Shown here: positions 47,741 to 64,000 of the stretch, piece after piece
How positions within the stretch are numbered: position 1 is the first letter of the stretch
Layout: the number at the start of each line of letters is the position of its first letter
Origin: Bacillus pumilus
GTDB lineage: Bacteria > Bacillota > Bacilli > Bacillales > Bacillaceae
Direction of reading: 5' to 3'
DNA length: 64,000 bases
Assembly (NCBI RefSeq): GCF_024498355.1
Contig: NZ_CP101833.1
Span: forward strand, 601,001 to 665,000
The notes under the pieces: generated by a model
The model's input: only the letters and a program-made list of their open reading frames with translations
Database searches by the model: none
What the model was told of the DNA's origin: nothing
Translations under genes and position numbers: made by a program

Positions 47741-48928
47741 TTGAAAAAGTTGTTATTGCTGCTGACAATGCTCACACTGGTACTGTCAGCGTGTGCACCT
47801 TTTGGGGGAAAGGACGAGGAAGAGGTCACACAAAAAACGGATGAAACGAAGGAAACAGCGATCATCCCCATGTACAATATCTCTGACTCCTATTACAAAA
47901 TGGTGCTGCCGTTTAAACAAGGGGCTGCAAGAGGATTAACAGCAGAGCGTCTCAATACACGCTTGGATATTGATGAATTTGAAATAGGACTCATGCGCCT
48001 GGCAACAGAGTCATTTAATACAAACGACTATCTTTTCCAAGAAGGACAGCATTTAGATGAGGATACCGTTCTCAGCTGGCTCGCGCGCAAAAAAACAGGC
48101 AGTGATCTGAAAAAAGCTGAAAAAGCAGATAAAGACTTTAAGAACCTAGGCTTAAATCCTGCTCTTCCAAACTCAGGTTCAACAAAGTCAAAAAACGAAA
48201 ATAGCCCAATATACTTATCTTCGATGCTAGAGCATAATTACTTAATTCGAAAAGACAAAAATAGCTTACAGCTTGGTGGAGTCGTCATTGGTCTTGCACT
48301 GAACTCTGTCTATTATTATCGTGAAAATATCGGTGATCCCCAGCAAGAGGTGACCATCGATTCATCGAAAAATTCAAAGAAACTCTTGGCAGAGGGCGAA
48401 AAAATCGCTGAGCAAGTGATCAAACGAATTCGTCAAATGGATGGTTTGCAAAAAGTGCCTGTCATGATTGCCCTTTATAAACAAGCGCCAAAATCGTCGA
48501 TTGTACCAGGAAACTTTATCGCCAAAACCGATGTGAAAGCAGGCTCAGCTGATATCGGCAATTGGGATACGATCAAAGAAGAGAATGTATTCTTCCCTTC
48601 AAATAATGCGAAAAGTAACTACAAAGATGATTCAGAGCGATTTGACCGCTTCAAGACAAAGGTTGAAGACTACTTCCCGAATTACACTGGAGTGGTAGGA
48701 AAAGGTTTCTATAAAAACGGAAACCTGCAAAAAATGAAAGTAGAAATTCCAATGCAGTTCTACGGAAAAACGGAAGTCGTGGCTTTCACGCAATATTTAA
48801 CAGGTGAAGTGATGGACTACTATAAGAGCACAAATATAGAAATTAACATCACATCTTCTGATCAACAAGAAGCCCTGATCACGAAAAATGCTGAAGACAA
48901 AGAACCTATCGTCCATATATATGACTAA
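47741..48928 (+). CDS. camS: CamS-family sex pheromone-like lipoprotein (YerH)
   Basis: 395 residues from TTG 47741 with GAGGAG upstream. Signal peptide with lipobox LVLSAC, lipidated Cys at residue 18. CamS family, related to the staphylococcal cAM373 pheromone precursor; the signal peptide can in theory release a hydrophobic peptide. B. subtilis name yerH. The last gene of core synteny before the biosynthetic island. Confidence 0.95.
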
Positions 48929-48929
48929 T

Positions 48930-48955
48930 AAAAAACCGCCTTTTGGCGGTTTTTT
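48930..48955 (+). terminator. Intrinsic terminator of the pcrB-camS operon
   Basis: AAAAAACCGCC (48930-48940), loop TTTT, GGCGGTTTTTT (48945-48955). It marks the left edge of the inserted cluster. Confidence 0.93.
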
Positions 48956-49061
48956 AAATTAGGTAAAATGTATCAAATCATGAAAAAATTGTTATAAAAA
49001 GTAGAAGTGTAGAAAATAATGTATTATTATGATTGGTAATGAAGAGAAAATGGAGATAAAT

Positions 49062-50261
49062 ATGAAAAACAAATCATTTTACTTTTTATTAGGGGGTCAA
49101 ACCCTAGCTAATTTTGGGGATTCACTATATGTCCTCGTTCTTACCATCCTGACGTATCAATTAACAAATTCTACGCTGATTGCTTCAATGGTAGCCGTCT
49201 CGCAGTTTGTTGGACAAGCACTTGGAGCGATACTCATCCCTTTCTTTATGTATCAGCTTAAGCTAAAAAGGCTCATTATCTATTTGCAAATTTGTCAAAT
49301 TACTTTCTTCGGCTGCTTAATTTTCATTTATATTCTACAACTATCAACATTTTCTATTCCTCTTTTTTTTATCATTGTATTTCTACTTTCTTTGATAGAT
49401 GGAGGAACCATTCCTGTTCGAAATTCAATGATTCCACGTTTAGTAGAAAAGCACTTTTTACTAAAAGCCAATAGCTATATCTTAACTTCTGATCAAATTG
49501 TCCTTTTACTAGGCTGGCTTTTAGGAGGACTATTTATTGGCATTCTAGGACCACAATTTTTACTTTTGACGACACTTGTTTTATACAGTTTGTCGCTCAT
49601 ATCCATGCTCTTTATCATCGATACTGGAGCTGCGGCTAAACAAGAGAAACAGTCTGAATCATTTGGTGCAAGGGTCTTTTCAGGCTGGAAGCTCATGTAT
49701 GAGAAGCCGACAATTCGAACATTAACGATTTTAGAAATGCTTTCCATGTGCGGCAGAAGTATTTGGACTGGTGCCATTATCCTTGTCTATGTTACAGAAG
49801 TCTTACACCAGCCTGCCACATGGTGGGGCTTTATTAACGCAAGCTATTTTGGCGGAACCATTCTAGGCGGCCTGCTCGTGCTGCGGTTTGCAAAGCATGT
49901 GGAACAGCGTTTGTTTGATCACATTTTTTACAGCTCGGTGATCGTTGCCGTGTTGACCCTATGCTTAGGGCTGAATCATTCAGCTTGGCTGAGTTTGTTA
50001 TTTGTCTTTTTGTTAGGCCCAGCCTTTCAGCTTCGCAGCATTTCCATTCGCACATATGTACAAGATACACTGAGTCAAATTGAATTGCCTAAAATACTAT
50101 CAGCTCAACATACACTATCAACTTTTATATACGGAATGTCCATCCTCATTATGAGCACCATGACCGATCTCTTTGGGGCAAGAGTCGTCTTTTTTATAAA
50201 CGTTGTCCTGTTTACTGTGTCGGCTTTCCTAGCGTCTAGATTAAAAAATGAACAAATTTAG
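49062..50261 (+). CDS. MFS transporter next to NRPS cluster (candidate exporter)
   Basis: 399 residues from ATG 49062 (GGAG six bases upstream; start MKNKSFYFLLGGQTLANFGD). About 12 helices of the MFS_3 type (macrolide/enterobactin exporter-like). Contains DGGTIPVRNSMIPRLVEK, typical of that family. AT content is higher than in core genes. It is followed 90 bases later by the first NRPS gene in the same direction and likely exports the capped peptide-polyketide or serves self-protection. Confidence 0.85.
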   Translation: MKNKSFYFLLGGQTLANFGDSLYVLVLTILTYQLTNSTLIASMVAVSQFVGQALGAILIPFFMYQLKLKRLIIYLQICQITFFGCLIFIYILQLSTFSIPLFFIIVFLLSLIDGGTIPVRNSMIPRLVEKHFLLKANSYILTSDQIVLLLGWLLGGLFIGILGPQFLLLTTLVLYSLSLISMLFIIDTGAAAKQEKQSESFGARVFSGWKLMYEKPTIRTLTILEMLSMCGRSIWTGAIILVYVTEVLHQPATWWGFINASYFGGTILGGLLVLRFAKHVEQRLFDHIFYSSVIVAVLTLCLGLNHSAWLSLLFVFLLGPAFQLRSISIRTYVQDTLSQIELPKILSAQHTLSTFIYGMSILIMSTMTDLFGARVVFFINVVLFTVSAFLASRLKNEQI

Positions 50262-50278
50262 ACATTTTATCTCAATTA

Positions 50279-50307
50279 TTTACAAAAATACTATTGTATG
50301 ATTTAAT
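50279..50307 (+). promoter_or_regulatory. Candidate promoter of the NRPS cluster
   Basis: TTTACA (50279-50284), 17 bases, TTTAAT (50302-50307), about 45 bases before the first NRPS start. Moderate match to sigma-A; no regulator site recognised. Confidence 0.4.
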
Positions 50308-50352
50308 ATGTTCGTAGAAATGTTAACTATATGAAAAGTAGAGGTGGCGTAA

Positions 50353-53300
50353 TTGACTAGTAGTTTAGTATATTGGCCATTAACACATCCGCAGCGGCGC
50401 GTGATGAACATGGAAACATTTTATCCAAAAACACCGATCAATCATATTGGCGGTATCATTTTTGTCAATGGGCCGTTGCAGCTCGACAAACTGAAGCAGG
50501 CCATTGCATCTTGTATCAAGACGACAGAATCACTTCGTCTCAAGCTAGTAGAGAAAGACGGAGAGATTCTTCAATACGTTGCTTCAAACACAGACAACCA
50601 TATTCCTGCCTATGAGTTTTCCACACATGAACACATGTTAGAATGGGCCGGAAAAGCCTTCAAAACACCATTTCAGTTACTAGAAACCTCTCTCGCCGAA
50701 TTTGCCGTATTGAAAGTCGGCGAACAGCATTCCGGTTATTTCATCAAATGCCATCATACTGTAGCAGATGGATGGTCGATGAAAGTCATCATCGATAAAA
50801 TTAGTCAACTTTACATTGCTCTTACACACAGCTCCTCTATCGAACAAGAAGCAGACAATCATTCTGTTTTTATTGATAAAGAATCGAAATATATGAACTC
50901 CCCAAGATTTAAAAAAGATCAGCAATTTTGGAAAGAAACATTATCTGATGTGTCTGAAAGTGATTTGGTACAGGGAACTGACCAAATCAAAGGCCATCGA
51001 CAAAGCCATTATCTTGATCGACAACTCTCAGAAAGAATCTATGAATTTATAGACACCCATCATTGTTCAATCAACTCTTTATTTACTTTAGGCCTCTTCG
51101 TTTACTTGCATAAAAAATACCAGCAAAAAGATTTTATTATTGGGACGCCAGTTCTCAATCGTTCCGGGCAAAAGGAGAAAGCCACATCCGGTATGACCGT
51201 CAGCACAATGCCTTATCGAATGAAGATCGATCCTCATCTATCTTTGTTAGAAAGTCTGACAGACGTTCAAAAAAACTATAAGGCCTACTTCCTGCATCAG
51301 CGCTATCCATATGACGCACTCGTCAAAGATTTAGAGCTTGCAAAGGCAGGATATGATCAGCTTTTTCAAATCTTTATCAACTCCTACAGCACAAATATGG
51401 TGCAGGAGATGGAAGGGTACGCAGTTGAATACATAGAGCTTTACAATGGCTTCCAGCCATACGGTTTACAAGTTGCTGTGAAAGAATGGGATGAAAAAGG
51501 GCAAATCGAGCTGCAATATGATTACAAAATCTCAGATTACGGCAAGGAAGACATCAATTTTCTTCATGAGAGGATGCTCCTATTTGTCGAGAACATACTC
51601 ACCCAGCCTAAGCAGCACATAAAAGACGTACTTCTTATGACAGAAGAGGAGAAACATCGAGAGCTTTATCAATGGAATGACACAGCCGTCCGATTTCCAC
51701 AGAAACAAAAAATCCATGAATTGATCACAGATATGTCTAAGACTTCCCCTGATCGAATCGCACTTCAGGATGGATCTCATGTAATGACATACGGTGAACT
51801 TGAGAGAAAAACCAATCAAATGGCACATTTCCTCCAAACAAAAGGCTTACAGAGGCATGACTTTGTTGCAGTATGCATGAACCATTCACCAGAACTTATT
51901 GTGCTGCTGCTTGGAATTTTAAAGGCGGGCGGTGCATACGTACCGATTGATCCTGAGTATCCGCAGGAGCGCATTCAGTTTATTTTGGATGATAGTCAGG
52001 CGAAGCTGTTTTTCACAGAACAAGTGTCGTCATACCATTTTGAAGGCGATACGTACAATGTGTATAGCGTGTGGGATGACTTAGATCAGTATGATTCAGC
52101 ACATTCATTCATTGGAGATGCTGGAGATGTCGCATATATGATCTATACGTCCGGCTCTACAGGACAGCCAAAGGGCGTCATGATTGAGCACCGAAGCTTA
52201 GTGAACTATATCTTGTCTGCCAAAACACACTATACAGATTCAGCAGATGATCATTTTGCCTTGTATTCATCCATTGCATTTGATTTAACTGTGACATCCA
52301 TTTATACGCCATTGGTGACTGGAAGTACAGTGGTGATCTATCGTCAAGAGGATCAGTCAGGTTTTTTACTAGAACATATCTTGTTTGATCAAAAAGCAAA
52401 AGTCATCAAACTGACACCAGCTCATATGGCGCTGCTAACAGATGCTGCACTGTCTCAATCAGTAGTGAAACGGATGATTGTTGGCGGGGAGCAATTACCG
52501 GCAGCTTTGGCCAAAAGAATCACAGAGGCAAGTGATGGACGAATTTCGATCTTTAATGAATATGGACCAACTGAAGCAACCGTTGGCTGCATGATTCATC
52601 AATTTCAACAAGACGATGGCGGGACGTCAGTGTCTATTGGTGTGCCGATGCCAAATACGGAGATTTACCTTTTAGATGAAAATCAGCAAGTGGTGTTACC
52701 AGGGACAGTAGGAGAAATGTATATTTCAGGCGAGGGTGTTGGCAGAGGATATTGGCAAAGACCTGATTTGCAGGAATCGCGCTTTCTGCCGAATCCATTT
52801 GTAAGCCATCGCCGCATGTACCGAACAGGTGACATTGCCAAACGAGCAAATGATGGAAAGATTGAATATATTGGCCGGCTTGATCATCAAATCAAGCTGA
52901 GAGGCTACCGGATTGAGCTGGGGGAAATTGAACTTGCGCTTATGGCACTCGATGAAGTTGATAAAGCCGCTGTCATTGATCTAACCGATCAGGCTGGAGA
53001 AAAACAGCTGGCTGCTTATATTGAATTAAAAGAAAAAGAGATGACGACCTTTTTACTAAGAAAAAAATTATCAGAGCAGCTGCCAGCTTATATGGTCCCA
53101 GCGTATATTGTCATACTAGATGAGCTCCCGCTAACTCAAAACGGAAAAATCAATCGAGCAGCACTGCCTGATCCATTGCTGTCTCAAGTGGAAACAGAGG
53201 TTGAATGGTCTAAGGAAAAAGCGGTCATCGAAGAGATCATAATAGATACAGCAAAAGATATCTTAGGGCATGAAAAGATCGACCCAGCTGATCATTTTTA

Positions 53301-54822
53301 TCAGCTTGGCGGTGACTCCATTAAGGCGATTCAATTTATTGCGAAGTTAAAAGACAAGGGACTCTATTTAAAAACAAAAGATATATTTACTTATCCAATT
53401 TTTAGAGAAATGGCACAAGTCGTCCAGCAAGAACCGGCATTACATATCTCACAAGAGCAGGCTGCGGGCGATGTGAAATCGATACCAATTGTCGAATGGT
53501 TCTGGTCCCAGCGGTTAAAAGACGAACATTTCTGGCATCAATCCATCATTGTTCATTCAAAGAAGAAGATGGATGAAAGGATCTTGAACGATGCTTTAAA
53601 AGAGCTGGTCATTCATCATGACGGATTAAGGTTAAAAGTACAAGAGACGACAAACACACTCTATTATGATGAAAGCATGCAGCATATTCCGCTGATGATA
53701 CACGATTTCACGGAGCTGTCAGAAGAGAATGTGCAAGAAGCGTTAAAAGAAGTGGGTTTTCAGTTGAAGCAGAGGACCCATCTTTATCAAGGACCATTAA
53801 TTCAGGCAGCACTTTGTCAAACCACTGCTCAATCACATCTCATTTTTGCCGCACATCATCTTTTAGCTGACGGCATGTCATGGCAAATTCTTGTGGAGGA
53901 CTTGATGAAATTATTGCATGCAGAAAAGGTCACAGCAGAGATGCTTCCGCTCAAAACACATTCATATCAGACGTTTGCGGAGCGGATGAACCAGTATGCA
54001 GCATCAGGTGATGTAAATAAGGAATTCAGCTATTGGCAAAAAGAGGTGCAGGATATTCAGCCTTTGTATCAAGTGGCTGCAAATGAGGGATATGTCAAAG
54101 ATGAAATCAAATTGACCAAGGTATTATCAGTTGAGCTGACGGATCAATTGATCAATCAAGCGAACAAGGCGTATCAAACGCAGCCTCATGAATTGTTAAT
54201 CTCAGCGTTAACGCAAGCCTGTTCTCAGCAAACGAATCAAAAGCAGATTTCTTTAGAATTAGAAGGCCATGGCAGGAATGCTGTGCAGGAAGATATCGAT
54301 GTGTCTAGAACGTTCGGATGGTTTACAACCATGTATCCAGTGAATGTGAATGTTTCTGAGTCTGTTGCAGATCATATTCGGGCTGTCAAAGAAACGATAC
54401 GTGAAGTACCAAATAAAGGTGCAGGCTATGGTCTGTTGTCACTCATCAATAGACAGCTTCCGGACCATTCAGCGCCACAACTACGGTTTAACTATTTAGG
54501 TGAGATCGATCAGGTACTTAAACAATCACCTGATTATGAGATGTCCTATTTTTCTTCAGGTGCTGATTCGTCATTAGATAATCAATTAACAACCGTCATC
54601 GATATGGTCGCAACAATCAAGGGTGGTCAGCTGATTTTCCATCTATCTTTTAGTGAAAAACAGCTGAGTGAAACAGAGATGACGCAGCTTTTGCATGAGG
54701 TAGAGCGGCAAATTGAACGTTTGGTTCAGCATTGTCTAGAGAAGGAAGAGATCGAATTTACACCGTCTGACTTTGAGACAGTGGACATGTCTCTTGAAGA
54801 AATGGATTCGTTATTTACATGA
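50353..54822 (+). CDS. NRPS starter module C-A(Asn)-T-E (amicoumacin-type prodrug loader)
   Basis: 1489 residues from TTG 50353 with GAGGTGG. Domains: condensation (about 1-430, CHHTVADGWSM), adenylation (about 440-960; A3 IYTSGSTGQPKG, A5 NEYGPTEATVG, A7 YRTGDIAKR, A8 KLRGYRIELGE), carrier (GGDSIKAIQF at about 985) and C-terminal epimerisation (about 1045-1470, HHLLADGMSW). Reading the ten specificity positions gives D-L-T-K-I-G-E-V-G-K, close to the known Asn code, so an N-acyl-D-Asn unit is predicted. An N-terminal C domain at a chain start implies fatty acylation. Probably the AmiA equivalent. Its stop overlaps the peptidase start (ATGA). Confidence 0.92.
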   Translation: MTSSLVYWPLTHPQRRVMNMETFYPKTPINHIGGIIFVNGPLQLDKLKQAIASCIKTTESLRLKLVEKDGEILQYVASNTDNHIPAYEFSTHEHMLEWAGKAFKTPFQLLETSLAEFAVLKVGEQHSGYFIKCHHTVADGWSMKVIIDKISQLYIALTHSSSIEQEADNHSVFIDKESKYMNSPRFKKDQQFWKETLSDVSESDLVQGTDQIKGHRQSHYLDRQLSERIYEFIDTHHCSINSLFTLGLFVYLHKKYQQKDFIIGTPVLNRSGQKEKATSGMTVSTMPYRMKIDPHLSLLESLTDVQKNYKAYFLHQRYPYDALVKDLELAKAGYDQLFQIFINSYSTNMVQEMEGYAVEYIELYNGFQPYGLQVAVKEWDEKGQIELQYDYKISDYGKEDINFLHERMLLFVENILTQPKQHIKDVLLMTEEEKHRELYQWNDTAVRFPQKQKIHELITDMSKTSPDRIALQDGSHVMTYGELERKTNQMAHFLQTKGLQRHDFVAVCMNHSPELIVLLLGILKAGGAYVPIDPEYPQERIQFILDDSQAKLFFTEQVSSYHFEGDTYNVYSVWDDLDQYDSAHSFIGDAGDVAYMIYTSGSTGQPKGVMIEHRSLVNYILSAKTHYTDSADDHFALYSSIAFDLTVTSIYTPLVTGSTVVIYRQEDQSGFLLEHILFDQKAKVIKLTPAHMALLTDAALSQSVVKRMIVGGEQLPAALAKRITEASDGRISIFNEYGPTEATVGCMIHQFQQDDGGTSVSIGVPMPNTEIYLLDENQQVVLPGTVGEMYISGEGVGRGYWQRPDLQESRFLPNPFVSHRRMYRTGDIAKRANDGKIEYIGRLDHQIKLRGYRIELGEIELALMALDEVDKAAVIDLTDQAGEKQLAAYIELKEKEMTTFLLRKKLSEQLPAYMVPAYIVILDELPLTQNGKINRAALPDPLLSQVETEVEWSKEKAVIEEIIIDTAKDILGHEKIDPADHFYQLGGDSIKAIQFIAKLKDKGLYLKTKDIFTYPIFREMAQVVQQEPALHISQEQAAGDVKSIPIVEWFWSQRLKDEHFWHQSIIVHSKKKMDERILNDALKELVIHHDGLRLKVQETTNTLYYDESMQHIPLMIHDFTELSEENVQEALKEVGFQLKQRTHLYQGPLIQAALCQTTAQSHLIFAAHHLLADGMSWQILVEDLMKLLHAEKVTAEMLPLKTHSYQTFAERMNQYAASGDVNKEFSYWQKEVQDIQPLYQVAANEGYVKDEIKLTKVLSVELTDQLINQANKAYQTQPHELLISALTQACSQQTNQKQISLELEGHGRNAVQEDIDVSRTFGWFTTMYPVNVNVSESVADHIRAVKETIREVPNKGAGYGLLSLINRQLPDHSAPQLRFNYLGEIDQVLKQSPDYEMSYFSSGADSSLDNQLTTVIDMVATIKGGQLIFHLSFSEKQLSETEMTQLLHEVERQIERLVQHCLEKEEIEFTPSDFETVDMSLEEMDSLFT

Positions 54823-56360
54823 GGAAGAGTCAGCACATTGTCTACATTTCATTTGTCCTGGCAGTGTTATGGATCAGTAGTGTTGCCGGCCAAACAAATG
54901 CACAAGCAGCGATTTCATCTAAGGCCATTGATCAAGTGATTGAAGAACAGATGGAGCATGGGCGCATTCCAGGCATGTCCGTTGTGGTTGTGAAAAAGGA
55001 CCAAGTGGTGTACCAAAAAGGCTTTGGTTATACGGAGCGAAAGAAGAAGGAGCCTGTGACAGACAGCACTTTTTTTGAAATTGGCTCTACATCAAAGGCG
55101 TTTACCGCCCTTGCTATTGTTGACCTAGAGAAACAAGGGAAAATAGATCTGAAAGAACCGGTAAGCAGCTATATTCCAGGTTTTTTTCCAACGTACCATG
55201 GCAAGCCTCAGCGGATCACAGTGGATCAATTGATGCATCACACAAGCGGCATTCCCTTTCAAACCATTGCGCTTATCCAGCCAGATGATGCAAAGGATGC
55301 GTTGAAAAAAACAGTCCATCAGCTGAAATCAATCGAACTTAACCGCAAGCCGGGAAGCTCCTTTGAATATGCCACCATCAACTATGATGTCCTTGGTCTC
55401 ATCATTGAAAATGTAACAAGGCAGCCATATGAGGCATATATGAAAGGGCTGTTTAAAAGACATCATCTTGACCAAACGGAGGCTGGGCCCGAACGAATGA
55501 AGCACGGTGTTGTTTCGGAAGGGTTTAAACTGCAATTCCTTGCTCCGCATGTTTATCACGCACCGGAATATCGAGGCAATACCCCTGCTGGCTATATTGT
55601 GATGAATAGCCAGGAGGTTGGTACTTGGCTGCAATATCAATTGACCGATTCAACGTGGTCTCGTTTTGTGAAAAATCCTGATCACTTGACTGTGAATGTC
55701 CCAGACGAAGGGAAGCATGTCTATTACAATGCCGGCTGGTATATAGAAAAAAAACATGAGCATGTGAAATCGTTATTCCATGCAGGCTCTAACCCAAATT
55801 ATTCATCATTTTTTCTGATCCAGCCAAAAGAAGGCGTTGCGATCGGAGTGTTAGCAAATATGAATAGCAGCTACACCGAACAAACGGCTCGTCTTGTTGC
55901 CAAAGCGATTGTGGGAACAAATGATCAAGAAGAATCATCAATGGATCCATTTCAGCTCATTGATCAATTGAGTCTTGCCGCTACATGTCTTTTTATTTTA
56001 CTGCAAACGGTGTCTATTCTTCGATTTATCAAGTGGAGGAAGCGTGTAAAAAGTGGTGCTGTGGTTCAGCGGAAAATGACACTTGGCGTTTGGCTGAAAG
56101 GTCTCTGCTGGGTATTGCTCTTGATCGGAATATTGATCCTGCCAATGATTCTATCGCAGGCTGCCTTTAATGGGCTGCCTTGGAAAATGATTTTTGTATG
56201 GGGACCTTCCACTCTCATTGAACTAGCGATCTCTTATTATTTGTTTTTTGTTTGGTTTTGTACGATTGGTTTCATCAAAGGATTCATGGTGACATCTACT
56301 GCTGGAAAGAGAGGACAAAAAGATGACCATCAAACAGATTTCGGGCATTCATCCTTATAA
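54819..56360 (+). CDS. Membrane-anchored D-Asn prodrug peptidase (S12, ClbP/XcnG/ZmaM type)
   Basis: 513 residues: signal peptide (1-30, cleavage near NAQA), extracellular S12 beta-lactamase-like domain (about 35-365) and three C-terminal helices (FILLQTVSILRFI, GLCWVLLLIGILILPMIL, ELAISYYLFFVWFC). This is the build of ClbP, XcnG and ZmaM, which cut N-acyl-D-Asn from exported pre-antibiotics. Catalytic S90-K93 (GSTSKAF) and Y184 (SFEYATINYD) lie close to the ClbP positions. The Asn usual in the YxN motif is Thr here. Coupled by ATGA to the D-Asn module. It also acts as self-protection, as the active drug forms only outside the cytoplasm. Confidence 0.9.
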   Translation: MRKSQHIVYISFVLAVLWISSVAGQTNAQAAISSKAIDQVIEEQMEHGRIPGMSVVVVKKDQVVYQKGFGYTERKKKEPVTDSTFFEIGSTSKAFTALAIVDLEKQGKIDLKEPVSSYIPGFFPTYHGKPQRITVDQLMHHTSGIPFQTIALIQPDDAKDALKKTVHQLKSIELNRKPGSSFEYATINYDVLGLIIENVTRQPYEAYMKGLFKRHHLDQTEAGPERMKHGVVSEGFKLQFLAPHVYHAPEYRGNTPAGYIVMNSQEVGTWLQYQLTDSTWSRFVKNPDHLTVNVPDEGKHVYYNAGWYIEKKHEHVKSLFHAGSNPNYSSFFLIQPKEGVAIGVLANMNSSYTEQTARLVAKAIVGTNDQEESSMDPFQLIDQLSLAATCLFILLQTVSILRFIKWRKRVKSGAVVQRKMTLGVWLKGLCWVLLLIGILILPMILSQAAFNGLPWKMIFVWGPSTLIELAISYYLFFVWFCTIGFIKGFMVTSTAGKRGQKDDHQTDFGHSSL

Positions 56361-57303
56361 TGATTTGTTTTATCGCAGTTGCTTCTTCAATTGCTTTTTC
56401 CCGATTGTCAAGCTGCATGATCAAGAAGTCGCTCCATACTTATTAAATGATCAATTCGCATATGGCCTTACAGAAGAAGGTTTTTTGCAGATTGACTGGA
56501 TGTCGACACACGATCCAGAAAAGATTATGAATTTACAAGGCATTCAAGTCGAAAAAATCACGCGTTGTGCCAATCTCATTGAGAAAGTCAAACAAGATGT
56601 GTCGCTGAATCGCCCGGTTATTGTGTGGGTAGATCCTTACGTTCAGCGAGGTAGAAAAGAGTATTTGACGAAACATAGCCGGCATTCGATTTTAATCACG
56701 GGTTTTCATGAAAATCAGCAAATTTTCCATGTATTAGAGAATCGGCATTTAGATAATTTGTCGTATGAGCATCAAGTGTTGCCATATACAGACGTGCAGA
56801 AAGGATATGACACCTTTCATGATTATTTTCAGCCGAATGATCAATTTCATTCCTATGCGGCTTTCCACTTTGATTCGAAAAAGGTCTCGACTGAATTATT
56901 TGCTCAAAAAACAGCTTATTTCCTGAGAAATATGCATGGTCAGCTTGACGCAATAGAAAAAGGAATCACAGCACTCGAAACATTTTATGAGCAGTTTTCG
57001 CAATTGAATGACATCGAGAAGCTCGTGGCATCTTTCAATCAGGTCATCAATACGAAGAAAGTGGAGCTCTATCGGCTGAGTCTGATCAAAGAAGATCTGC
57101 CTGAGTTGATGCGGTGGATGGAACGTATTTTAGCAGAATGGGAGAAAGCGAGGCATCAGGCAGCGAAACTCCTTTTTTCAGGTGACATGTCCAGCAGGTA
57201 CCAAGCCAGCATCAAAGCTTCCTTAGAACAAATTATCCATGATGAAAAAAACTGGCTTGAAGCGTTGGCAATCAAATGCAAAAGGGAGTGTGGCGTGTCG
57301 TGA
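56323..57303 (+). CDS. BtrH_N-like protein in the NRPS cluster
   Basis: 326 residues. The first 170 resemble the BtrH N-terminal domain (papain-like acyltransferase of butirosin synthesis): YRSCFFNCFFPIV places Cys20 near the start and HSRHSILITGFHENQQIF carries the likely His. The C-terminal half is helical (LDAIEKGITALETFYEQFS) with no recognised domain. It starts 38 bases inside the peptidase gene and overlaps the thioesterase. An acyl transfer to or from the ACP is possible, but there is no direct evidence for its role. Confidence 0.7.
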   Translation: MTIKQISGIHPYNDLFYRSCFFNCFFPIVKLHDQEVAPYLLNDQFAYGLTEEGFLQIDWMSTHDPEKIMNLQGIQVEKITRCANLIEKVKQDVSLNRPVIVWVDPYVQRGRKEYLTKHSRHSILITGFHENQQIFHVLENRHLDNLSYEHQVLPYTDVQKGYDTFHDYFQPNDQFHSYAAFHFDSKKVSTELFAQKTAYFLRNMHGQLDAIEKGITALETFYEQFSQLNDIEKLVASFNQVINTKKVELYRLSLIKEDLPELMRWMERILAEWEKARHQAAKLLFSGDMSSRYQASIKASLEQIIHDEKNWLEALAIKCKRECGVS

Positions 57304-58010
57304 AGTTATTTTGCTTACCGTACGCAGGTGGAGCAAGCACCGTATTCAGTACGTGGAAATCTTATATAGACCGGTCGATAGAAATTCGTGCACTTGAACT
57401 CCCTGGACACGGGACAAGAATGACAGAGCCTGTGCTGACCGATTTACAGCAGGTCGCAGATGATCTTTATTTACAGGCGTCCTCTTTCTTAAAAGATGGA
57501 GAGCCCTACGCCATTTTCGGTCATAGTATGGGAGCTGTCCTTGCATACGAATTACAAAAAAGAATGAAAACAAGATTCAACAAAGAGCCTGTCCATGTCT
57601 TTTATTCTGGACGCTTTCCACCACACATTCCAGAAAAAAAAGTCTATCATCAGCTGTCAGATACCAAATTAAAAGAGGCGATTATTGCAATGGGCGGCGT
57701 TCCTGAGGAGCTTGCCGATAACCATGCAGTACTTGATTTCTTTCTGCCGATTTTAAGAGCAGACTTTCAGCTTCTAGAGACCTATCAGTGTGATGAAGTC
57801 GTTCCAGCTGCTTGTCCAATTTCTATTTTTTATGGTACGCGAGATTTGCCTTCTGTGCTGTTCGATTTAGACGATTGGGACCAATATACAAGCGAAGATT
57901 GTGCGTTTTTTGAATTCGATGGAGATCACTTTTTTATTCATTCATTAACAAATGAAGTGGTAGAGAAAATCAATGTCATTTTAAAGCGAATGGGAGTGTT
58001 GGAGAAATGA
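57300..58010 (+). CDS. Type II thioesterase
   Basis: 236 residues from GTG 57300, overlapping the previous stop (GTGA), with AAAGGGAG upstream. Alpha/beta hydrolase of the GrsT/SrfA-D editing type: CLPYAGGASTVFSTWK at the N terminus, nucleophile GHSMGAVLAYEL, and His in FDGDHFFIHS. It clears mis-primed or stalled carrier domains of NRPS/PKS lines. Four-base overlap with the following dehydrogenase. Confidence 0.93.
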   Translation: MKLFCLPYAGGASTVFSTWKSYIDRSIEIRALELPGHGTRMTEPVLTDLQQVADDLYLQASSFLKDGEPYAIFGHSMGAVLAYELQKRMKTRFNKEPVHVFYSGRFPPHIPEKKVYHQLSDTKLKEAIIAMGGVPEELADNHAVLDFFLPILRADFQLLETYQCDEVVPAACPISIFYGTRDLPSVLFDLDDWDQYTSEDCAFFEFDGDHFFIHSLTNEVVEKINVILKRMGVLEK

Positions 58011-58864
58011 ACAAGAAGCACATAGGCGTGATTGGAGCAGGTGTGATGGGGGCTGATATGGCTTTAGACCTTTCAGCAAATGGCTATCAAGTCACACTAG
58101 TTGATATCACAGAAGAAAAACTAAACGAAGCGCTAGAAAAAATCAAGAAGACATACCAATTGGTTCAATTTGTGAGAAAGAAGAAAATTTCGTTGTCTTT
58201 AGAAAACGTATTGTCTCAAATCCAGCTAACGACTTCATTTGAAGGCTTACATGATGCGCATATCGTCATTGAAAATGTGACAGAAGATTGGGAGATGAAA
58301 AAACCAATTTATGAAAAGCTGCGAGATATATGTGCGAAAGAAACCATTTATTTTGTCAACACAAGCTGTATTTCCATCACAAAGGTAGGGGCCCTTATGC
58401 ATTACCCTGAGAAGGTCATTGGGGCGCATTTTATGAACCCTGTTCCTCTTAAAGCGTTAGTTGAAGTGATTAGAGGAAAAGCAACGTCTGATGACACAGT
58501 TGAAACGGCAAAAGGTTTCTTGAAATCCTTTGATAAAACACCTGTAGTGGTACATGATCTCCCAGGATTTGTTTCCAACCGAGTGCTTATGCTGACAATC
58601 AACGAAGCCATTTGGACGGTGCAAGATCAAGTTGCCACACCAGCGGATGTCGATAAAATTTTCCGCGGAGGTTTCGGTCATAAAATGGGTCCACTTGCGA
58701 CAGGTGACTTGATCGGGCTCGATACGATTTTGAATTCTTTGCTTGTTTTATACGAGAGTTACAAAGATCCGAAGTTCCGTCCGTGTCCTCTACTTGTCAA
58801 AATGGTCGACGCAGGCGAGTACGGAAAAAAATCAGGTAAGGGCTTTTTCCAATATGACATGTGA
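58007..58864 (+). CDS. 3-hydroxyacyl-CoA dehydrogenase-like (hydroxymalonyl-ACP pathway)
   Basis: 285 residues with an N-terminal Rossmann motif GVIGAGVMGADMAL, FVNTSCISITKVG, and GAHFMNPVPLKALVEVI; C-terminal helical domain with KSGKGFFQYD. In zwittermicin (ZmaG) and xenocoumacin (XcnB) pathways such an enzyme oxidises the glyceryl-ACP hydroxyl on the way to hydroxymalonyl-ACP. The next three genes complete that set. ATGA overlap with the thioesterase. Confidence 0.9.
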   Translation: MNKKHIGVIGAGVMGADMALDLSANGYQVTLVDITEEKLNEALEKIKKTYQLVQFVRKKKISLSLENVLSQIQLTTSFEGLHDAHIVIENVTEDWEMKKPIYEKLRDICAKETIYFVNTSCISITKVGALMHYPEKVIGAHFMNPVPLKALVEVIRGKATSDDTVETAKGFLKSFDKTPVVVHDLPGFVSNRVLMLTINEAIWTVQDQVATPADVDKIFRGGFGHKMGPLATGDLIGLDTILNSLLVLYESYKDPKFRPCPLLVKMVDAGEYGKKSGKGFFQYDM

Positions 58865-58878
58865 GAGGAGAAAACAAA

Positions 58879-59934
58879 ATGGCTAAGCAAATCAAGTGTG
58901 TTGTCTGGGATTTAGATCATACATTATGGGATGGGATTTTACTTGAATCAGATGAGGTGACGTTAAAGCCATCGATCAAGGAAGTGTTAACGGAGCTAGA
59001 TGAGCGCGGTATCCTTCTTTCTATCGCAAGCCGAAATGATGAAACAGCCGTGAAGGAAAAGCTCTCCGCCTTCGGAATCGATCATTTCTTCCTCTATCCA
59101 GAGATTCATTGGAATGCCAAATCTAGTTCATTAAAGAGAATCAGCGAGCGCTTGAATATTCATAAAGATACCATTCTCTTTATTGATGATCAGCCATTTG
59201 AACGAGAAGAAGTGAAGGCTGTTCATCCGGAGATTACGTGCTGGGATGCGGTGGATTATATGACGTTGCTCACAGATGATCGGCTGCGTCCAGTCTTTAT
59301 CACAGAGGATGCAAGACGACGCAGAAAAATGTACTTAGAAGCGGATAAAAGGCAGCAGGAAGAAGAGAAATATGAAGGGCCGCCTGAGAAATTTTTGGCG
59401 TCTTTACATATGAAATTCGTTATATCGGAAGCAGGAGAACAGGACCTCCAGCGAGCCGAAGAACTAACTGTCCGTACCAATCAATTAAATGCAAGCGGAA
59501 AAACCTACGATTATGCAGAGCTTGATTACTTCCGTCAATCAGATGCTCACTTGCTGCTTGTCTGTGAACTTGAAGACAAATTCGGGTCCTATGGGAAAAT
59601 TGGACTCTCATTAATAGAAGAAATAGGTGACACCTGGCATGTCAAACTGCTGCTCATGTCTTGCCGCGTCATGTCTCGAGGTGTCGGGACCATTTTACTC
59701 ACAACGATTTTGCAAGAAGCGAAAAAGCGAGGAAAGCGGCTTGTGGCCGACTTTAAACAAACAGACCGAAACCGCATGATGTATATCACATACAAGTTTG
59801 CGAATTTCAAAGAAATCGAGAATGGGGAGGATGGCTATATTTTGTTTGAAAACGATTTAAGCTTGATTCAGCCTTTCCCAGAATACGTAGATGTCAAAGT
59901 TGAGATTGACCAAAAAGCCCCAGCCAAACAATAA
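58879..59934 (+). CDS. FkbH-like HAD glyceryl transferase
   Basis: 351 residues from ATG 58879; AGAGGAG lies eight bases upstream, making the GTG at 58861 unlikely. The N-terminal HAD domain has VVWDLDHTLWDG and FIDDQPFEREE; the C-terminal half is GNAT-like (VMSRGVGTILLTTIL). FkbH proteins dephosphorylate 1,3-bisphosphoglycerate and load glycerate onto an ACP. Homologues are ZmaN and XcnC. The partner ACP is the next gene. Confidence 0.93.
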   Translation: MAKQIKCVVWDLDHTLWDGILLESDEVTLKPSIKEVLTELDERGILLSIASRNDETAVKEKLSAFGIDHFFLYPEIHWNAKSSSLKRISERLNIHKDTILFIDDQPFEREEVKAVHPEITCWDAVDYMTLLTDDRLRPVFITEDARRRRKMYLEADKRQQEEEKYEGPPEKFLASLHMKFVISEAGEQDLQRAEELTVRTNQLNASGKTYDYAELDYFRQSDAHLLLVCELEDKFGSYGKIGLSLIEEIGDTWHVKLLLMSCRVMSRGVGTILLTTILQEAKKRGKRLVADFKQTDRNRMMYITYKFANFKEIENGEDGYILFENDLSLIQPFPEYVDVKVEIDQKAPAKQ

Positions 59935-59961
59935 AAAAGCGAAAAGCGAGGAGATTGAATC

Positions 59962-60231
59962 ATGAACCTACACGAACAAGTAAGAGCATATATCGAGCAA
60001 AACCTAGTGGTATTTGATGAAGAAATTGAGTTAGGAAATGATGATCACATTTTTGAACAAGGCTTTGTCAATTCTCTCTTTGCGATGAAACTAGTGAACT
60101 ACATTGAACATGACTTTCACTTCCAGTTAGACAACGAAGACCTCGACATTGCCAATTTTAGTACGGTCAATCGCATTGTCTCCTTAATTGAGAAAAAACA
60201 ACAGGGGGCGGCCCTTCATGAAAACAGCTGA
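59962..60231 (+). CDS. Discrete acyl carrier protein
   Basis: 89 residues. The phosphopantetheine Ser is S38 in IFEQGFVNSLFAMKLV; the usual DSL triad is NSL. The flanking helices fit an ACP (MNLHEQVRAYIEQ, DFHFQLDNEDLDIANF). It probably carries the glyceryl to hydroxymalonyl unit. GCGAGGAG precedes the ATG. The downstream dehydrogenase starts 14 bases before its stop. Confidence 0.9.
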   Translation: MNLHEQVRAYIEQNLVVFDEEIELGNDDHIFEQGFVNSLFAMKLVNYIEHDFHFQLDNEDLDIANFSTVNRIVSLIEKKQQGAALHENS

Positions 60232-61360
60232 ACAAACAATTGATGCCATTGAGGAAATACGACAGTATTGCGATGAACATATCCGTCCGTTTGCCAATGA
60301 ATTCGATGAAACAGAACATTTGCCGGAGTCGCTGATTCGCGATATGGCGAAAAGAGGCTACTTGGCAGCAGGTATCCCATCATCCTATCAAGGACTGGGG
60401 CTTGATCCGATTGCGTATGGACAGTTCACTGAACAAGTAGGGAAAGCTTGCTGTAATGTACGGACATTATTGACAGTGAACTCTCTCGTAGGAGAAGCCA
60501 TTCTTCGTTATGGAACAGAAGACCAAAAACAAGGCTGGCTCGTTGCATTAGCCAAAGGGGAAAAAATCGGTGCCTTTGCTTTGTCAGAGCCGAATATTGG
60601 ATCAGATGCCAATCATGTTGAAACAAGCTATCAAAAGGATGGACAGTCTTATGTCTTGAATGGGAAGAAAAAGTGGATTTCCTTTGGAGCGATTGCGGAT
60701 TTCTTTATTGTGATTGCTAGAGATGGCGAACAAGTCACCGCATTCCTTGTCGAGCGAGATCAGCCAGGTGTAGAGATTGAGAGGATTACAGGAATGATGG
60801 CCAACCGAGCGTCTTATTTAGCAGAAATCACCCTCGATCATGTACAGGTGCATGAAGACTGTGTCTTAGGACCAGTTGGGGGCGGATTTAACCATGTGGT
60901 GTCACTTGCTTTAGATCATGGAAGATACAGTGTTGCTTGGGCAGGGCTTGCCATTGCACAGGAAGCCGTTGATTCTCTCGTCACGTATTCACGTAAAAGA
61001 ACACAATTTAATGAAAAACTTTACAAGCATCAAATGATCAAAGGCATGATCGGAGATGCGGTCACCCAGCTCCATGCAGCGAGAGCCTTATGCCTAAAGG
61101 CCGGAGAAATGAGACAAGCGCAGCATCCTGATGCCATCACAGAGACATCAATCGCAAAATATTTCACATCTAAAATCGCCGTTGATATTACAAATACAAA
61201 TGTCCAAATCCATGGTGGAAGCGGATTTAGCCGGGAAAATTCAGCTTCAAGACTGTATCGTGAAGCGAAGGTGCTTGAAATTATTGAAGGGACTTCACAA
61301 ATTCAGCAGCAGGTCATTGCTAACTATGGTTTACGCCATTATTTCGTGAAGCATTCTTAG
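60218..61360 (+). CDS. Acyl-CoA dehydrogenase-like (hydroxymalonyl-ACP pathway)
   Basis: 380 residues from ATG 60218 with AGGGGG upstream; the TTG at 60188 is too far inside the ACP gene. FAD flavoprotein of the acyl-CoA dehydrogenase family: GAFALSEPNIGSDANHV, GKKKWISFGAIADFF and LEIIEGTSQIQQQVIANYG. With the dehydrogenase at 58007 it would convert glyceryl-ACP to hydroxymalonyl-ACP (ZmaE, XcnE role). Confidence 0.92.
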   Translation: MKTAEQTIDAIEEIRQYCDEHIRPFANEFDETEHLPESLIRDMAKRGYLAAGIPSSYQGLGLDPIAYGQFTEQVGKACCNVRTLLTVNSLVGEAILRYGTEDQKQGWLVALAKGEKIGAFALSEPNIGSDANHVETSYQKDGQSYVLNGKKKWISFGAIADFFIVIARDGEQVTAFLVERDQPGVEIERITGMMANRASYLAEITLDHVQVHEDCVLGPVGGGFNHVVSLALDHGRYSVAWAGLAIAQEAVDSLVTYSRKRTQFNEKLYKHQMIKGMIGDAVTQLHAARALCLKAGEMRQAQHPDAITETSIAKYFTSKIAVDITNTNVQIHGGSGFSRENSASRLYREAKVLEIIEGTSQIQQQVIANYGLRHYFVKHS

Positions 61361-61380
61361 AGAGAAAGGAGATGATCCCA

Positions 61381-64000
61381 TGGCTTTAAAGCCGCAGAAG
61401 CTGGATAAACAGAACATTGAAAATATGTTAGGTATCACTACGATCCAAGAAGGACTGCTGTTTCATCATTTAATGGAACCAAACGGAACGGCTTATTTTG
61501 AACAACTGCTGATCCAGATAGATGGTCCGCTTGATCGAGAAATCTTTGAACAATCTTGGACGAATGTCACCAAACAGCATGAAATGCTTAGAACATTGTT
61601 TAGATGGCAGGAGCTCGCAAGGCCTGTACAAATTGTTCTGAAACAGCATCAGCCTGACATTCGATATCGTGATTTGACTCAAACTGTGCAGCCTCTTCAT
61701 CTGCTGAAAGAGGAAGTGGCGACACAGGAACGAGAAGAACGTTTTGATCTACAGCAAGTCCCATTTCGTCTGACGTTATGTGAGGTAAATGAAGAAGTCA
61801 GCTGGGTTCTCATTAGCTTCCACCACATTTTATTGGATGGATGGAGCCTTGGGATTGTATTAAGTGATTGGATGAGTGCATATGAGCGTTTATCAAATGG
61901 GGACAAACCGCTTCTTGAACAAAGGCCGTCCTACCAATCATTTGTCAAATGGCAGCAGAACATCCTTCAGCAGACAGAAGCACAGGCCTCCTATTGGAAA
62001 AATGTTTTCAACGGCTGGAGTTATGCAGAACTGCTTCCGAAGTCAGGCAGCATACATGAAGCTTCAGCAGCCTTTCACAAATATGAACATCAAGTGGATG
62101 CTTCTATTGCTGAGAGCCTGAGCGAATTCACGAACAAACATGACGTGACATTGGCATCTGTGATGTATACGCTGTGGGGCGTTTTGCTATCTAAGTATGC
62201 CAACCAAGATGATATTGTGTTTGGAACAACAGTATCAGGAAGAAATGCGAATGTCCCTCATATCGAGAAGATGACTGGCCTGTTCATTAACACATTACCG
62301 CTGCGGGTCTCATTCGAACAGGATAGGTCTATTCTTGAACTTATGCAGCAAGTCAATCGTGAGGTAGCTGTGAGAAATGAATATGAACATACGCCGCTAT
62401 CTGATTTAAAGAAGTATGCAGGGATAACAGCAGAGCAATCGTTATTTGATTCAATCGTCGTCATTGAAAACTATCCACTTGATCGAATGCTAACGAAAAG
62501 CGATCATCCTGTTCGTATTCGTGGATTTGAGATGACAGAGCAGACGGAATTCGATCTTACGCTTAGTGTGCAGGCGTTTGATGATCAGCTGCATTTCTCA
62601 TTGGTGTATAACCCCGTCAGTTTTTCAGCTGAACAAATCGAAAAGTGGTGTCAGCATTTTCTCCATCTCCTGTCTGATGCCTGTGCTCATCCGCACAAAT
62701 CTGCGTCTCAATTACAGCTGCTATCAGAAGAAGAGAAACAAAAGCAGCTAGCGGTCTTTCGTCAATATGGCGGGGCAACTTCTTGCAATGAACCGACGGT
62801 GATTGACCTATTTGAAGAGCAAGTGGAACAAACGCCAGCGGCAGCGGCAGTTGAGTTTGGCGATACGACGGTTACATATGAACAACTCAACAAGAGAGTG
62901 AATCAGCTCGCACATTATTTACAAAAGAAAGGGGTCAAACAGGAGCAGCGTGTCGGTATTTTAGCAGAGCATTCCATTGAAATGGTGATAGCATGCTTGG
63001 CCATTTTAAAAGCTGGCGGTGCTTACGTACCAATTGATCCTGAATACCCGCAGGAACGAATAGAATATTTATTAGAAGACAGCGGAGTAGAATGGCTCCT
63101 AACACATCCGATTAACGGGCTTACGTATGCCTATAACGGAGAAAAAATTGATATTACACAGCCGGATCTATACACCGGACCATCAGACAACCTGGCAACA
63201 GCCATCACCTCAGATCAAACAGCCTACTGCATTTATACATCAGGAACGACAGGAAGACCTAAAGGTGTACTCATTCACCATCTTGGCTTAGCCAACTATA
63301 TTGATTGGGCGAAACAAGTATATGTTCGAGGAGAAACAAGGCATTTTGCTTTGTATACTTCACTGTCATTTGACCTGACGGTTACTTCTATTTTCACACC
63401 ACTGATTTCAGGAAATACCATCATGATTTATCACCATGAAAACAGGCAGCTGCTTGTCGAAGACATTATAAAAGATAATCGCGTACATGTGATGAAACTG
63501 ACACCATCTCATTTACAGTTTATTAAGCATCTGTCTTTCCCAGACAGCCAAATGAAATGCTTCATTTTAGGCGGAGAACAACTGGAAGCATCTCTAGCGA
63601 AATCCATACAGCAATCATTCCCGCAGCCAATTGAAATTGTAAATGAATATGGACCGACTGAAACGGTTGTTGGCTGCATGATTCATCGATATGACGCAGA
63701 CCGTGATCAAGACGTGTATGTGCCGATTGGTAAGCCCGCTCAGCATACAGATATTCTTCTTTTTGACAGACATATGAATCTCATGCCGGAAGGGACCGTC
63801 GGTGAATTATACATTGGGGGAAAAGGTGTCGCAAAAGGCTATTTGAATCGCCCAGAACTAACCGAAGAGCGATTTGTCGACCACCCTTTCCAGCCAGGTG
63901 AAAAAATTTATAAAACAGGTGATGCAGCCCGCATCCTGCCTAATGGACTTATTCAGTTTTTAGGACGAAATGATGATCAAGTGAAGCTGAGAGGCTATCG
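61381..64000 (+). CDS. NRPS C-A(Asn) module, 5' part, running off the window
   Basis: The frame is open from ATG 61381 (GAAAGGAGATGATCCC before it) to base 64000, 873 residues so far. The condensation domain (about 5-450) has FHHILLDGWSLG and should take a D-configured donor from the first NRPS. The adenylation domain starts near 465: A3 CIYTSGTTGRPKG, A5 NEYGPTETVVG, A7 YKTGDAARI, A8 VKLRGYR at the edge. The specificity positions again read D-L-T-K-I-G-E-V-G-K, predicting Asn. In amicoumacin this Asn gives the terminal amide side chain. PKS partners are expected downstream. Confidence 0.93.

Follow-up and report, generated by a model that had tools for sequence, protein, structure and literature searches.

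Gene clusters for amicoumacin have been described from several bacteria, and section 2.4 of PMC8835302 names ami clusters of a B. pumilus, a B. subtilis and a Paenibacillus type. The DNA considered here (the window, 64,000 nucleotides of Bacillus pumilus at C1:601001-665000 of a 3.74 Mb genome, with the DNA past its end fetched and the numbering continued beyond 64000) holds, judged from its genes, the first portion of an amicoumacin cluster of the B. pumilus type that is complete in this genome, for a pathway that is already known. The cluster lies between genes taken to be camS on one side and mgtC, opuE and gat on the other. On the evidence set out below, it is highly probable that this is an amicoumacin cluster at an ancestral site with two alternative alleles, a whole cluster that would make and resist the antibiotic or a lone kinase that would only resist it, and moreover that the lone kinases originated as stumps of lost clusters and that the alleles have been exchanged between species of the pumilus group.

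In the accessible parts of PMC12366304 and PMC8835302, the B. pumilus-type cluster of B. safensis CB729, a strain from which amicoumacins have been isolated (PMC12366304), has its gene order, its upstream exporter and its reversed AmiO all as here. Within the portion of PMC12366304 that was available, the sizes of AmiA, AmiB, AmiC, AmiI, AmiM, AmiN and AmiO are identical in both genomes (1489, 513, 326, 3029, 2136, 335 and 468 amino acids, respectively), and the exporter and AmiD, H, J, K and L lie within 1–11 amino acids of their counterparts, with AmiE–G falling outside the comparison. Nothing essential differs in what could be compared, and the small length differences may represent choices of start codon. 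The B. subtilis-type cluster (B. subtilis 1779, B. inaquosorum KCTC 13429; PMC4894447) has the same gene set in the stretches that were read. Further systems are the Xenorhabdus amicoumacin/xenocoumacin clusters, described in part of PMC5055758 as possessing rearranged homologues of amiA, amiB and amiD–M and lacking amiC, amiN and amiO, and the zwittermicin A cluster, whose ZmaK is less than 40% identical to AmiI (PMC8835302, section 2.4). Lone Bacillus kinases resembling AmiN (PDB 6sum; homologues in the consulted part of PMC7235827) share the family, the deposited activity and the chromosomal site of the cluster kinases, and differ in having no biosynthetic genes, a start outside the amiM overlap and a leader region of their own. 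Over its full length, AmiN of this genome matches PDB 6sui, whose deposited name is “amicoumacin kinase” (758 bits), and the lone kinase of one surveyed genome (G001) is 99.1% identical to 6sum, which was likewise deposited as an amicoumacin kinase.

The site was surveyed in 44 Bacillus genomes, one per species. All 44 possess camS and 34 possess an AmiN-type kinase, which in every one of the 34 lies on the camS contig at the camS–mgtC site. By tblastn of the stretches fetched around the site, twelve of the kinase genomes carry the cluster (ten of the pumilus type and two, G011 and G039, of the subtilis type), 20 carry the kinase alone as the sole gene between camS and mgtC, one (G036) carries a relic, and one (G013) carries the kinase together with a toxin pair. 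The camS–amiN spacing is 39–43 kb in the 11 cluster genomes other than this one, and the two subtilis-type genomes share the same camS–mgtC–opuE site, with ami genes of 44–83% identity per matched stretch. The G036 relic retains the exporter, three scraps of amiA/amiB (two of them inverted), an amiM reduced to its final 195 codons, and both amiN and amiO. In G013, 4.9 kb with an LXG endonuclease toxin gene and a YezG-like immunity gene lie between camS and the lone kinase (L027:11332-13690).

A kinase alignment led to 24 named loci, 22 of which are from Bacillus; 16 of these are lone kinases with camS/mgtC flanks and six have amiM upstream. B. safensis occurs in both classes, strain S-11 with the cluster and FO-36b without it, and B. 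altitudinis 41KF2b has the kinase alone, a species that the available part of PMC8835302 counts among the cluster holders. Laboratory B. subtilis 168 has a lone kinase too, yerI. The two remaining loci, labelled Staphylococcus intermedius and Tumebacillus flagellatus, have kinases 55% and 48% identical. On the contig labelled S. intermedius (L177:4576-5930), an AmiM-like end (45%) adjoins the AmiN-like kinase (55%), and contamination or another ami locus is possible. Two further observations concern individual surveyed genomes in which the other ami genes are present: AmiL of G018 (L060:3800-7669) has an in-frame deletion of ~1120 residues, by coordinates from the second ketosynthase (KS) domain into the ketoreductase (KR) domain, and the exporter of G034 (L077:1898-2585) matches in three separate pieces only.

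In cluster genomes the start of amiN lies inside the end of amiM, and it is this end that left a trace upstream of the lone kinases, where about 60 bases in G016 and G031 and about 90 in G003 resemble it. When each of the 21 lone kinases (G013 included) was compared with 500 dinucleotide shuffles, 20 remnants scored above every shuffle, and when the last 21 bases were omitted, 20 of the 21 again did so, G033 beating 497; the 21 kinases are related to each other and do not amount to 21 independent tests. It is because of this decayed amiM end that the lone kinases look like stumps of lost clusters, left behind when a stretch from the exporter through the last amiM codons would have been deleted. 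That many relatives without the cluster keep just its kinase at this spot suggests a cluster long resident there that has been lost or swapped, and not one that arrived recently.

The amiM end may have been conserved for more than its protein product. A 12-base motif, GGNATGTTGATG, is found at 19 of the 21 lone kinases (all except G016 and G031), with its ATG 65–76 bases before the kinase start, where it opens short open reading frames (ORFs) such as MLMLELV, MLMLV, MLMNDIC and similar. A longer pattern, picked after the motif instances had been seen, matches 59 times across the 44 genomes; 31 of these matches lie shortly before the kinase, spread over 31 of the 34 kinase genomes, and the reversed form matches twice. 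The motif was at first considered a purely new leader peptide, an idea that was revised when the same bases were located, out of frame, inside amiM of the cluster genomes. Across nine pumilus-type genomes, each counted against this one, the last 60 codons of amiM show eight synonymous differences in 511 comparisons (0.016, versus a gene mean of 0.205), and the next lowest of ten other gene ends (amiG, amiI, amiJ and amiK excluded) is 0.071, in amiL. Low synonymous change at the 3′ end is partly general, since in three of those ten genes (exporter, amiB and amiL) the 60-codon minimum likewise falls at, or ties with, the 3′ end. In the comparison with the two subtilis-type genomes, the final 40 codons of amiM give the smallest value among 2097 windows (0.18, mean 0.58). 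Synonymous change in amiN itself is not low (0.166).

The constraint on the amiM end is thus an observation, and any mechanism for it is a guess. One account, with somewhat less than an even chance, is that the conserved sequence upstream of the lone kinases is functionless, an amiM fossil that has yet to decay. Base pairing between the motif and the kinase start is possible, and the stem appears in the minimum free energy and centroid structures of five of eight folded sequences, but the single-sequence folds are weak (z from −2.4 to +0.3) and shorter pieces of several pumilus-group sequences favor another stem. Also in keeping with a fossil, no Rfam family exceeded threshold in seven loci, G016 and G031 do without the motif, and there was no compensatory change in the stem among 19 sequences, although the 5′ arm is nearly invariant, such that this count neither supports nor refutes the stem. 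Standing against a mere fossil are the retention of the motif at most lone kinases despite decay of the amiM sequence around it, and the scarcity of synonymous differences over the last 60 codons. A reading with a fair, though less than even, chance is instead that the amiM end hides a cis-regulatory element controlling AmiN, made up of a leader ORF (MLMI) in another frame and a stem that covers where the kinase begins; such an element would be selected at synonymous sites in the cluster, would be the sole biosynthetic sequence kept after cluster loss, and would become the inducible leader of the lone kinase. Leader-peptide attenuators of the erm/cat type have a short ORF shortly upstream that is complementary to the start of the resistance gene, as the AmiN-type kinases may have, where the leader peptide and any drug response are putative and folding support is weak.

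The pumilus group, with ten cluster genomes and seven kinase-only genomes (G013 included), provides the evidence for exchange. Kinase identity there is 93–99% within the cluster class, 75–97% within the kinase-only class and 64–77% across the two, whereas the flanking genes show no such class split, with cross-class identities of 94–99% for camS, 92–100% for mgtC and 89–99% for opuE. DNA similarity between alleles, compared in five pairs, is 91–95% up to the camS stop codon or terminator and returns to 87–97% once the 3′ end of mgtC is reached; between this genome and two kinase-only alleles, those of G001 and G030, it ends at about 48956 and 48962. In a tree of rpoB–rpoC DNA, made by a quick method from 40 of the 44 genomes (four without the kinase were omitted), the two classes are interspersed, and seven changes are needed over the 34 kinase genomes of both species groups when the relic is counted as a cluster. 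The kinase tree has a single change of allele class within the pumilus group, and protein trees of camS, mgtC and opuE from this group are poorly resolved, with no split by class. These patterns point to two allele classes that have probably been exchanged between species at one site through their shared flanks, presumably by homologous recombination.

Vertical loss of the cluster within each species, coupled with fast divergence of the kinase and no exchange between species, appears unlikely. A long kinase-only branch in the pumilus group is indeed what fast change after loss would be expected to generate. The lone kinases of the group nevertheless form one clade while the rpoBC tree scatters their species among those that carry the cluster, and approximately unbiased (AU) tests on the kinase data reject three groupings modelled on that tree (p = 1.8e-42, 7.5e-6 and 5.9e-81).

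A recent island, in which biosynthetic genes arrived beside the kinase of a pre-existing camS–kinase–mgtC locus, is quite improbable. The sequence-only reading had regarded the cluster as an inserted island on the ground that B. subtilis carries other genes at this place. Restriction of the cluster to 12 of the 44 genomes, with the majority of the genus lacking it, would agree with an arrival of this kind. The island claim was rejected on the site survey and the amiM remnant: in the 20 genomes with nothing but a kinase of the same family between camS and mgtC, most with an amiM remnant, the resident of the cluster-free relatives looks like a cluster leftover rather than an unrelated gene. Moreover, G036 appears as a collapsing cluster at the same site, and the kinases of pumilus-type clusters sit with the pumilus-group lone kinases in the kinase tree, apart from the kinases of subtilis-type clusters.

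Several points weigh against an ancestral site with stumps and exchange. The remnant at the eight B. subtilis-like lone kinases is short and weak (scores of 36–47 versus shuffle maxima of 34–41), and that of G014 beat 499 of its 500 shuffles and not all. Eleven of the 12 cluster genomes were read at their two ends (16–20 kb each), with a gap in between that takes in the 3′ part of amiI, the whole of amiJ and a good part of amiK. Ten of the 44 genomes carry no AmiN-type kinase (those among them that are in the rpoBC tree stand at a greater distance), so that what occupied the site before the subtilis and pumilus groups diverged is arrived at indirectly, as is polymorphism within species from a sample of one genome each. 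The groupings for the AU tests were picked after the rpoBC tree had been seen, at places where its support is 89–94, and the kinase tree, with long outgroup rows, fails to recover the subtilis group as a single clade. Finally, amicoumacin was called as the product from the genes alone.

Domain calls (Pfam and NCBIfam) bear on that last point. AmiI is composed of condensation (C), adenylation (A), peptidyl carrier (PCP), KS, acyltransferase (AT), KR, acyl carrier (ACP) and C domains; AmiJ of half a C domain, A and PCP; AmiK of KS-AT-KR-ACP; AmiL of two KS, one AT, one KR and two ACP domains; and AmiM of KS-AT-ACP-C-FkbH-PCP. By profile matches, AmiN is an APH kinase and AmiO an alkaline phosphatase. 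The second condensation-family part of AmiA matches solved PCP-epimerization (E) pieces of the gramicidin S and tyrocidine synthases. The main domain matches have E-values of 1e-39 or better, with AmiC and the carrier protein AmiG alone being weak (about 1e-6). With motifs aligned by hand, nine positions in the A domains of AmiA and AmiI both read DLTKIGEVG, the Asn code, and both domains are predicted to activate Asn. The same positions in AmiJ read DAQDLGAVQ, which gave no clear call and is not known to be a Leu code. For this residue, the feeding work reported in the published sources, as far as these were accessible, supports Leu. Because a full C domain closes AmiI and AmiJ opens with half of one, a frameshift or split gene was considered here and rejected: the published cluster has the same AmiI size and a similar AmiJ (889 versus 893 amino acids), so the boundary is not a genome error.

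Much of what the sequence-only reading had claimed for the cluster itself was borne out. The overlapping genes that it placed in one direction after camS were all located, as were its two Asn modules of nonribosomal peptide synthetase (NRPS) type, the D-Asn peptidase and type II thioesterase (AmiB and AmiD), and the hydroxymalonyl-ACP set (AmiE, F, G and H), and its amicoumacin call agrees with the full amiA–amiO order, domains and sizes reported in the available text on CB729. Downstream it had predicted polyketide synthases, a Leu module and a resistance pair; AmiK–M, a third NRPS module (with a code that gave no Leu call) and the AmiN/AmiO pair are present. That the product is instead a relative akin to zwittermicin or xenocoumacin is very improbable indeed, for despite the “zwittermicin A” label given by antiSMASH to the same kind of cluster in CB729 (PMC12366304, in part) and an AmiJ code not known for Leu, the gene set, order and observed sizes equal those of that characterized amicoumacin producer and the AmiN/AmiO pair is a dedicated one.

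The C-terminal tail of AmiM is a separate puzzle. Residues 1001–2136 (L026:11904-15311) comprise C-FkbH-PCP (FkbH at 280 bits, cut-off 147), and a domain search for a thioesterase on AmiM found none. To our knowledge, no known pathway step requires such a tail. Among 120 proteins listed of 1470, 17 are of the AmiM type (2123–2165 amino acids with KS, AT and condensation domains; from Bacillus, Priestia, Paludifilum, Paenibacillus and others), chosen by size and domains and not by gene neighborhood, and in all 17 of these listed matches HNxxxDG replaces the HHxxxDG motif of condensation domains, with HN instead of the catalytic HH. Other listed FkbH-bearing proteins have HN in five cases and HH in 42, and the motif was not found in 11. 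Relative to G024, the ratio of nonsynonymous to synonymous change (dN/dS) takes the values 0.064 (C domain), 0.069 (KS-AT-ACP), 0.09 (FkbH) and 0.28 (linker plus PCP), with an unusually low dS in the last of these regions. Tetronate pathways use glyceryl-ACP in chain release, and by analogy our guess is that the AmiM tail could present a glyceryl-PCP for the same purpose. The Xenorhabdus AmiL-M of 3419 amino acids (size from part of PMC5055758) would, we argue, have no space for this tail.

Together, exporter and amiA–amiO span 44.7 kb in this genome and end at C1:694762, with all named window genes on the + strand and short overlaps between them. The left flank of the site is the conserved camS (47741..48928, +), followed by its terminator, a hairpin and T run (48936..48955, +), and a major facilitator superfamily (MFS) exporter (49029..50261, +) named AmiP in the accessible part of PMC8835302, in which position 49062 is an in-frame ATG yielding 399 amino acids. 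AmiA (50353..54822, +; C-A-PCP-E, with the Asn code in its A domain) would begin the N-acyl-D-Asn prodrug chain, and AmiB (54819..56360, +), a PF00144 serine hydrolase that is the prodrug-cleaving peptidase by family and by the consulted part of PMC4894447, would take the cap off. Next come AmiC (56323..57303, +), with a weak C39-peptidase/BtrH-like match, and the type II thioesterase AmiD (57276..58010, +). Hydroxymalonyl would be supplied by AmiE, a 3-hydroxyacyl-CoA dehydrogenase (58007..58864, +), AmiF, an FkbH protein for glyceryl loading (58861..59934, +; 282 bits, cut-off 147), AmiG, an acyl carrier protein (59962..60231, +), and AmiH, an acyl-CoA dehydrogenase (60188..61360, +). Asn and the hydroxymalonyl unit would be contributed by AmiI (61380-70469, +), which the window cuts at 64000, and the third residue (Leu, per published work) by AmiJ (70478-73159). 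The polyketide from AmiK (73152-77657), AmiL (77658-84911) and AmiM (84904-91314) would close to the dihydroisocoumarin, and for self-protection AmiN (91307-92314) would phosphorylate the drug and AmiO (92356-93762, −) reactivate it, a mechanism taken largely from published work on the amicoumacin family, for which B. subtilis JH642 + sfp is a published heterologous host. On the right lie mgtC (93875-94585, −), opuE/putP (94737-96218, −), and gatC (96629) followed by gatA and gatB. Further NRPS genes occur elsewhere in the genome (G000), at C1:362623-403700 and 3608590-3613071, with 13 and two condensation-domain matches, respectively.

In the literature searched, which left most subscription journals outside, no published account was found of a two-allele site or allele exchange, of an amiM-remnant or stump origin of the lone kinases, of the constrained amiM end, or of the AmiM tail. 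The comparison adds a testable two-allele antibiotic locus at one chromosomal site in two species groups, where an intermediate relic and fossil traces of amiM, the last synthase gene, also survive. Such a locus would help to explain the amicoumacin resistance of non-producing Bacillus, would show self-resistance outliving the pathway, and would direct attention to a possible control element embedded in amiM and to the puzzling last module of AmiM.

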